Position numbers and translations under genes: made by a program. 64,000 nucleotides of DNA from Lampris incognitus (taxonomy: Eukaryota; Chordata; Actinopteri; Lampriformes; Lampridae), in the NCBI RefSeq assembly GCF_029633865.1, contig NC_079213.1:102324923-102388922 (forward strand). The letters run 5' to 3'. Positions 41,801-44,800 of this stretch are shown piece by piece. The notes below the pieces were generated by a model, which made no database searches, had not been told where the DNA came from, and worked only from the letters and a program-made list of their open reading frames with translations. Within the stretch, counting starts at the first letter, position 1. Each line of letters starts with the position of its first letter.

Positions 41801-44800
41801 TTGGTGTGTTCACGATATCCTACATTATTAGCTATCCTTATGGCTCTTTTTTGTAATAGTTGTAGGTTGGTTTTGTTGGTTTCACCCCTCACCTCCACAC
41901 AGTAGATCAGATATGGTAAAATAAATGAACAATACAGAGTGTGTACAATGATTTATGATCCAGAATGTGACTTGCTTTTCTCATGACTGCAATGCTCCTT
42001 GCCAGCTTTGCTTGCACATTTGCTTGCAGTAGTTAGCATGGTCACCTCACAGCAAGAAGGTCCTGGGTTCGAGCCCAGGGTAGTCCAAACTTGGGGGTCA
42101 TTCGGGGTCGTCCTCTGTGTGGAATTTGCATGTTCTCCCCGTGTCTGTGGTGGGTTTTCTCAGGGTGCTCCGGTTTCCTCCCACAGTCCAAAGACATGTA
42201 GGTCAGGTGAATCAACCATACTAAATTGTCCCTAGGTGTGAATGTGTGTGTGTCGGCTCTGTGATGGCCTGGCAGCCTGTCCAGGGTGTCTCCCCACCTG
42301 CCGCCCAATGACTGCTAGGATAGGCTCCAGCAGCCCCACGACCCTTGCTCAGATAAGCGGCTTGGATAATGGATGGATGGATCCAGCACCCAGAGGTGCT
42401 GATAATTGCTACTAAAGTAAAAGTACTTTTAAACCAGGGAAACTTAAGTATTTATTAAGAAAATTACTCAAATAAGAGTAAATGAGTTTTTTAGCGCCCT
42501 GTGATGGTCTGGCGGCCTGCCCTGGGTGTCTCCCCGCCTGCCATCCAATGAGTGCTGAGATAGGCTCCAGCATCCCCATGACCCTGAGAGCAGAATAAAC
42601 GGTTTGGATAATGGAATGGAGTTTCTTAGTGTAAAACTACTTGAGTAATTGTGTTGTGAGTTGCTTTTGTTCTTTTCATGTCTGCAAACAAACACAACTG
42701 TAGCTCTGAAAATATGGAAATACTCTTTAGTTGACACTGCCCATATCATGGAAATAAACTCAGTGCATGAACAAACCACATTTATTTTGGCATTGTAAAT
42801 CTCCAAAAACACCCAGTATCACTAACACTTACTATTCATTTAGCCATTTGTTTTACTCTGTAATGGTTATTAGAGTAAAAATAGCAAAGTATTATAAATC
42901 AACTCAAAATAAAAGCACTGCAACGACCACGGATGACTAGACTCGCTAGCCCTTGGTTAAGGGGTCAGACCCTTTAGTTGACTGGTTAGCGCAGCTGCTC
43001 ATGGTGCGGGAGACCCAGGTTCGTGTCCCGGCTGCGGCGGTTCCGAGCTGCCCCCCGAATTCACTACATTGGGGTCAGAAGTGGGATGGTGAGACCATGA
43101 GGCCATCGGAAGCACGTTCACCCAGAGGCGTGAGGGAACTGGTATGCTGAAGCACGGGGACGCACTTCCCAAAGGAGTGGGGTAATGTAATGACCACGGA
43201 CGACTAGACTCGCTAGCGGTTGGCTAACGGGTCGAACCCTTAGCGCAGTCGACTGTGGTGCGGGCGACCCGGGTTCAGTTACCGGCTGCCCTCTGAATTC
43301 GCTGCAGTACAATAATTTTTTTTCATTATACTTAGTAAAGTACCATTACAGGGAAAGATTTACTTAAGTACTATAATGCGAGTAATTGTAATTCATTACT
43401 TTCCACCTTTGTGACATGCATGATGAACTGATGCTGACCTTTCATCATTCTCATGTAAGCCACATTTTCTTTCATGACACAGGTCAAAGACAGACAGGAG
43501 AGAGATTTGAAGGTGAAAACCTTTGCTCCACCTTACGTACGTAAAAGAAGTCTCCACTTTCTCATGTTTGTCGTATATAAAACGTACTCAGTATACAGTC
43601 CGTCCATCTTCTCAGGTACCAAATGAAACCAGTGCTGGTGTCACCTGTCCACAGGCCTCCCAGCCGGAGCTGTACCTGCTGCCAGCAGCGGAGAAAAACG
43701 GCAGCATCTGTTTCCGGTCTTTCACCCCAGAAACCGGCAGCACCTCCCCGGAGCCGCAGACACACCTCCTCCCTAAGACGGGCAGTCTGCCAACTGGGAC
43801 AAAGGGGCCACTTAAGTTCCCCCTCATCCCCCAGTGTTCCCACCAGTCACCTTCCACCCCTGGACCCGAGGAGGAGGAGGAGGAGGAGGATGAAGAAGAG
43901 GAGGAGGAGGACAGTTGCAGCTCTACAGGCAGAGATGGAGAGAATGAGGAGGAGCGTCTCTCAGCCCTCAAACAGGAATGGGCTGTGAAGGAGTCCTGTC
44001 CGAGGAGGTCCAAGAATCAGCGGATCATCCAGTGTGGTTCACAGGTCAAAGGTAAAAATCAAAATGAAACTTGTATTCAGACTCTTTTTTTGGGGGGGGG
44101 CAGATTTGACCAATCTAACCAAACGCTGCTGAATGATGTAACCAGTCACTCTGAAGTTATTTTCAACTGTCTTAATAATGAATTAAAAAAAAATTATATA
44201 GCTTAAGCAATATATCAAGAAGGTCAGTCAACTTTGATGAAACATTTCACTTATACAAAAACAATTTGTTGATTTAGGGGTTAATAACAATTTCAAGAAA
44301 CCGATTTATTCTAAATGCCAAAGTAAAACTGTTTAATGAACGGTTCACAGATATGGTAACATCTCCCAAACACATTCGATTTCTATTCCAGGGCGATTTG
44401 TGCCAAATGTCACTGAATATTTTTCAAGGTTTAAAGATAGAACAAGTAGGATTTTCCTAAAAATCAATGTATAGGGGCGTCCGGGTAGCATAGTGGTCTG
44501 TTCCGTTGCCTACCAACACAAGGATCACCAGTTCGAATCCCCGTGTTACCTCCGGCTTGGTCGGGCATCCCTACAGATACAATTGGTTGTGTCTGCGGGT
44601 GGGAAGCCGGATGTGGGTATGTGTCCTGGTCACTGCACTAGCGCCTCCTCTGGTCGGTTGGGGCGCCTATTCGGGGAGGAGAGAGAACTGGGGGGGGGGA
44701 TGGCTTCCATTCATAACTGTAGTCCACTGACTTCTGGTTTCTACTGCAGCAGTCATACCAGTTTCCTGTTTGTTGGCGTGTGCTATTGACAATGGCATAT

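Follow-up and report, generated by a model that had tools for sequence, protein, structure and literature searches.

TRIMs with a tRNA-like sequence in their LTRs have recently been described as Helenus and occur in fungi, animals and one plant (Kojima 2024, PMC10886601). Its vertebrate hosts include coelacanth, sterlet, paddlefish, zebrafish and other Cypriniformes, a catfish and milkfish (Ostariophysi), according to the same paper. Animal Helenus elements are described there with 4-bp duplications, vertebrate ones with tRNA-His, tRNA-Leu and tRNA-Lys as primers, and lengths span 311-1263 bp (PMC10886601). Most Helenus LTRs hold a box A of the form TRGCY...YGG and a box B GGTTC, fish Helenus sequences were aligned with tRNA Val-CAC, LTR-11_DR forms arrays, and the describer regards the Pol III function of Helenus as unvalidated (PMC10886601).

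Here we analysed a window of 64 kb, the whole stretch of DNA under study, and focused on one element within it, copy a (Table 1). The TRIM copies of this locus resemble Helenus in their tRNA-like LTRs, primer site and purine tract, 4-bp duplications, presumed tRNA-Leu primer, short non-coding body, solo LTRs and arrays. More specifically, copies a and b agree with Helenus in length and structure, each having two LTRs, a primer site, a purine tract and no coding capacity. The locus differs from Helenus in an A box that reads TAGTY rather than TRGCY, in tRNA matches of which Val-CAC is not the best, and in the inverted order of one array.

We therefore consider it very probable that copy a is an old copy of a Helenus-type TRIM, both in its identity and in its mode of replication, a confidence that the tRNA-Val and B-box results described below lowered slightly. 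The likeness is drawn from the published description of Helenus and not from its sequences, and the repeat is possibly already catalogued. The first-pass annotation had held that no such vertebrate family was described, which is wrong, as Helenus was published in 2024 with fish among its hosts (PMC10886601). Copy a is thus not a new kind of element. The locus brings two LTR subfamilies to a group that combines SINE-type promoters with LTR-type replication, and it offers concrete sequence signals for testing the use of Pol III.

Three further systems are close to copy a. Cassandra is likewise a TRIM with a Pol III-promoter-type sequence in the LTR and forms LTR-sharing arrays, but it is a plant element, 5S-derived and equipped with conserved Pol III terminators, whereas copy a is tRNA-like and has no run of four T (PMC10886601, PMC7215508). 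Ajax, a nemertean TRIM containing part of a 5S rRNA, shares the Pol III-type LTR sequence and a tRNA-Leu primer (presumed for copy a) and differs in its 5S origin and 5-bp duplications (PMC10886601). The tRNA-derived SINEs (SINE2) have tRNA-like A and B boxes as copy a does, but they are moved by LINEs and lack LTRs as well as a primer site and a purine tract (PMC10886601). No other Helenus paper was found by title in a literature search that included 2024 onward. Five 14-16-mers from the window copies had no match in the literature search, and DNA patterns gave 0 matches in viral and prokaryotic contig collections, as expected of such collections.

Table 1. Coordinates of the TRIM copies, their sequence signals and the Gypsy-type elements in the 64-kb window.
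Feature	Position	Strand	Remarks
Copy a, non-coding TRIM-like element	42919-43306	+	388 bp; LTRs 150 + 121 bp
Copy a 5' LTR (a5)	42919-43068	+	150 bp; TG...CA ends
Copy a internal region, non-coding	43069-43185	+	117 bp
Copy a 3' LTR (a3)	43186-43306	+	121 bp; A box deleted
Copy a left flank GCAC, presumed left target-site duplication copy	42915-42918	+	3 of 4 bases match right flank
Copy a right flank GTAC, presumed right target-site duplication copy	43307-43310	+
Copy a primer-binding site	43070-43087	+	complement of tRNA 3' end, 1 mismatch
Copy a polypurine tract AAAGGAGTGGGG	43171-43182	+
GGGTCAGACCC, potential hairpin followed by TTTAG	42962-42977	+	proposed start/stop (R) region, inferred
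A-box-like TAGTTGACTGG	42975-42985	+	1 mismatch to TRGYNNARYGG
B-box-like GGTTCGTGTCC	43018-43028	+	1 mismatch to GGTTCGANTCC
a3 B-box-like GGTTCAGTTAC	43272-43282	+	3 mismatches
Copy b, second LTR-internal-LTR copy	18602-23780	-	split by nested Gypsy-type element B
Copy b LTRs	18602-18746; 18850-18952 + 23734-23780	-	latter is the 5' LTR, cut by element B
Copy c LTR	13690-13824 + 18339-18355	+	cut by Gypsy-type element A
Copy c including primer site	13690-18374	+	primer site 18357-18374, 2 mismatches
f2a, 47-bp LTR remnant without tRNA-like part	24358-24404	+	flanks ATAC/ATAC
f2b, second-subfamily LTR	24409-24540	+	right end not found
f2c, second-subfamily solo LTR	25040-25163	+	124 bp; TG...CA; flanks ATCT/ATCT
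Gypsy-type element A	13825-18333		GTTGC on both sides; nested in copy c LTR
Gypsy-type element B	18953-23728		GGTCC on both sides; nested in copy b 5' LTR
Gypsy-type element C	51313-55713		TAAAT duplications

Structure of copy a

The two LTRs of copy a match each other with a BLAST E value of about 1e-13. When all eight LTR copies are aligned, these two share 96 of 121 aligned bases. The internal region between them begins with TTGGGGTCAGAAGTGGGAT and finishes with AAAGGAGTGGGGTAA. Stop-free runs in its three forward frames reach at most 30 codons, in keeping with the first-pass annotation, which had found no coding sequence.

The LTR pair, the TG...CA ends, the purine tract and the letters of the flanks all lie where that annotation had placed them, and its primer-site-like sequence beside the left LTR was recovered one base past the LTR end. 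The observation is thereby confirmed, with qualifications. The flanks agree at three of four bases only, and the A- and B-box-like motifs reported for the LTR are those of a5, the a5-type A box having been lost from a3 by deletion. The annotation had overlooked the relatives of copy a located from 13690 to 25163.

Related copies and target-site duplications

Further copies were found by BLAST and a profile search of the 64-kb window, and eight LTR copies (a5, a3, b5, b3, c5, f2a, f2b and f2c) were compared. Copy b repeats the plan of copy a, with its purine tract, GAAAGAGGGGG, in the same place; at its outer LTR end the first T is missing and a TA repeat adjoins. The internal regions of the two copies are homologous (BLAST 8e-20, 82% over 85 bases), a relationship also recovered by a profile built from both. 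The concern that the repeat might exist only as single units without paired LTRs and a fixed internal region is refuted within the window by the paired LTRs of copy b, this homologous internal region and the exact 4-bp duplications of two solo LTRs.

The f2 sequences point to a second subfamily. f2b and f2c are identical at 109 of 121 positions and have a 5' end and a 3' half distinct from those of copies a, b and c, with which they have the central stretch in common. Target-site duplications could be assessed in copy a, f2a and f2c and not in b, c and f2b. Exact 4-bp duplications flank the two solo LTRs, ATAC at f2a and ATCT at f2c, and across the window 4-mers set at these spacings agree at 0.6 and 0.8% of positions. 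Either f2a lost its tRNA-like part through an internal deletion, or it represents a form that predates the gain of that part. With its duplications f2a spans 24354-24408, and f2b begins immediately past its right ATAC.

The stretch 13690-23780 forms an inverted TRIM array, both outer ends of which are LTR 5' ends. It reads, in order, a plus-strand LTR and primer site, tandem repeats, and a minus-strand primer site, LTR, internal region and LTR. The middle of the array contains 67-bp tandem repeats (18382-18522), and each of the outer LTRs hosts a nested Gypsy-type element.

Primer-binding site

The 18-mer that follows the 5' LTR of copy a is one base off TGGTGTCAGAAGTGGGAT. At up to three mismatches, TGGTGTCAGAAGTGGGAT has four sites in the 64 kb (0, 1, 2 and 2 mismatches), compared with 0.10 expected from shuffles, and all four lie one base past an LTR 3' end. 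The exact 18-base match is at 18583-18600. The complement of TGGTGTCAGAAGTGGGAT terminates in CCCACTTCTGACACCA. We take the tRNA fragment TCGAATCCCACTTCTGACACCA to be from tRNA-Leu and hence the primer site to be of the tRNA-Leu type; with this assumed label, the primer type fits the vertebrate Helenus set of His, Leu and Lys. The fragment TCGAATCCCACTTCTGACACCA itself is listed in PMC12025293. A literature search with the 17-base primer site gave no match.

Taken together, the paired LTRs, the primer site, the purine tract and the exact duplications of the relatives support the structural reading of the first-pass annotation, a TRIM with tRNA-like sequence in its LTR.

tRNA-like sequence in the LTRs

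The start of the A-box-like word precedes that of the B box by 43 bp in a5, b5, b3 and c5 and by 44 bp in f2b and f2c. The A box departs from the consensus at one position in four of the five LTRs of the first subfamily, and f2b and f2c both carry the A-box-like TAGTCGAGCGG with none. In a3 there is another A-like word, TAGCGCAGTCG (one mismatch), 31 bp ahead of its B box, and f2a has lost the whole A-to-B stretch or never had it. GGTTC is found in a5, a3, b5 and b3 of the eight LTR copies, and the A box is TAGTY, not TRGCY.

Resemblance to tRNA was scored as the best local alignment against six human tRNAs and compared with 300 dinucleotide shuffles; in a rerun, the shuffle routine at no point fell back to plain shuffling. 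No shuffle reached the score of a5, a3 or b3, and few reached that of b5 (3/300), f2b (8/300) or c5 (9/300), so that likeness at the sequence level is present in six of the eight LTRs (at most 9/300 shuffles reaching the best score). The scores of f2c (44/300) and f2a (223/300) are not outstanding. Of these tRNAs, Gly-GCC scored highest in five LTRs, whereas f2b and f2c scored best with Asp-GTC and f2a with Lys-CTT; Val-CAC never came first.

The first-pass annotation had proposed folding the LTR and running a tRNA promoter predictor, and the outcome is divided: the sequence likeness stands, but neither a cloverleaf nor an Rfam match accompanies it. The Rfam tRNA model, at E values up to 5, had no match in three stretches that together took in copy a, the greater part of copy b and the f2 pieces, nor was there a tRNA match at the gathering score in the whole window, which was the sole Rfam coverage of copy c. 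Four off-topic Rfam matches appeared in two of the three stretches, all far under their gathering scores. ARAGORN, run on the whole window, led nowhere. Four folded LTRs showed no cloverleaf and had z-scores of -0.05 to -1.31. Two of them were about as stable as an average shuffle (equalled or surpassed by 97 and 96 of 200 shuffles) and the other two were somewhat more stable (18 and 20 of 200). Judged by its sequence, the A-to-B stretch looks tRNA-derived and decayed in old copies.

Mode of replication and alternative explanations

The replication signals of the locus indicate retrotransposition of the LTR type, carried out in trans. For a Helenus-type TRIM of this kind, transcription by Pol III would begin a short way upstream of the A box in the 5' LTR and finish in the 3' LTR. 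A tRNA-Leu would prime the first strand and the purine tract the second, with reverse transcriptase and integrase borrowed in trans from an autonomous Gypsy-type element. Integration would leave a 4-bp duplication, as made by the helper. As to the Pol III transcription step alone, which is plausible, we lean slightly towards it.

That step is all that the strongest alternative denies. Copy a may be an ordinary Pol II TRIM in which the tRNA-like stretch is an idle passenger, such as an old SINE insertion. The pattern of conservation fits such a passenger: among a5, a3, b5, b3 and c5, mean identity is 0.75 in the A-to-B stretch, 0.74 in the A box and, lowest of all, 0.68 in the B box, compared with 0.75 in the 5' part, 0.87 in the 3' part and 0.92, the highest value, in a 16-base hairpin segment. 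The A-to-B stretch is thus no better conserved than the rest. Furthermore, neither Rfam nor the folds indicate a retained tRNA structure, and f2a has a target-site duplication yet no tRNA-like part. An idle passenger accords less well with the steady A-to-B distance in six LTRs, with the perfect A box of f2b and f2c and with the single mismatch in most first-subfamily A boxes. We regard this explanation as possible, though doubtful.

According to a second alternative, the A and B boxes arose by chance in a GC-rich LTR, and the stretch has no tRNA origin. How far chance suffices depends on the stringency of the box pair, which was assessed by shuffling a5, c5, b5 and f2c. With up to two mismatches in the A box and three in the B box, a pair occurs in seven of the eight LTR copies, yet 1000 shuffles of each of the four LTRs also yield it 106-218 times, as expected of chance motifs. 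At up to one and two mismatches, respectively, four of the eight copies have a pair, versus 1-7 of 1000 shuffles per LTR shuffled; for the pair of a5 itself, with boxes 25-65 bp apart, the count is 1 of 1000 shuffles of a5. A perfect A box paired with a B box of at most two mismatches, as seen in f2b and f2c, was produced by none of the 1000 shuffles of any of the four LTRs. The lack of an Rfam tRNA match and the variation of the best tRNA among LTRs suit chance motifs, but three of the eight LTRs outscore all 300 shuffles against tRNAs, and we consider this alternative quite unlikely.

A tandem SINE dimer, tRNA-derived and mobilised by a LINE, would match the presence of the tRNA-like unit as two direct copies, but we reject it as having next to no probability, given the LTR-type replication signals (primer site, purine tract, TG...CA ends) and, as strong counter-evidence, the LTR-internal-LTR plan of copy b with its homologous internal region and the two solo LTRs with exact 4-bp duplications.

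A possible transcription start and stop

If a Helenus-type TRIM is transcribed by Pol III, the transcript has to terminate within the 3' LTR, at a point downstream of where it starts. The motif GGGTCNGACCCTTTAG reaches into the beginning of the A box. It is exact in six of the eight LTR copies (for b5 in the joined sequence) and has five exact sites in the window. At up to two mismatches there are ten matches, one of them in a3, compared with 0.08 expected; four of the ten are the same places on the opposite strand, because the motif is nearly palindromic. None of the eight LTR copies contains a run of four T, and the Gypsy-type LTRs likewise have none.

The potential GGGTCNGACCCTTTAG hairpin and the following TTT could conceivably serve as both start region and terminator of a Pol III transcript, a proposal that we put forward as speculative and rather improbable. 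If true, the terminal repeat would measure no more than some 11-17 nt, which would suffice for the first strand transfer, and the model would account for LTR-type replication of a Pol III RNA without a four-T run. An 18-bp redundancy is reported for Cassandra (PMC10886601), of which the GGGTCNGACCCTTTAG repeat would be the tRNA-type counterpart. AATAAA and TATA are absent from the eight LTRs; we rejected this absence as evidence for Pol III, as the LTRs of Gypsy-type elements A and C lack them too.

Gypsy-type elements and other content of the window

Three Gypsy-type elements, A, B and C, lie in the window, each with reverse transcriptase, RNase H and integrase domains. The LTRs of element B are identical at 193/193 bases and enclose a 1347-codon stop-free frame, and those of element C are identical at 210/210 bases, with a 1303-codon stop-free frame. 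Element C is probably a recent insertion. As helpers of the TRIM all three were rejected: their duplications are 5 bp long, not 4, and agreement with the primer site of the TRIM is limited to the first 10 bases in B and the first 11 in C, with fewer in A. With 5-bp duplications and at most 11 shared primer-site bases, none of them is likely to be the helper, and an autonomous helper with 4-bp duplications was not found in the window.

The window contains 71 ORFs of at least 110 codons. Pfam searches of 20 other ORFs identified LINE-like endonuclease, reverse transcriptase zinc-binding and Tc1-like transposase domains; none of these 20 could be recognised as a host gene. Two inverted-repeat units, at 28872-30072 and 56553-57820, exceed 99% mutual identity in parts, and Tc1-like transposase domains are encoded by an ORF that the latter overlaps. 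Two further repeat copies, at 242-2106 and 61550-63336, are 84% identical, and the first of them overlaps an endonuclease-domain ORF and is possibly a LINE.
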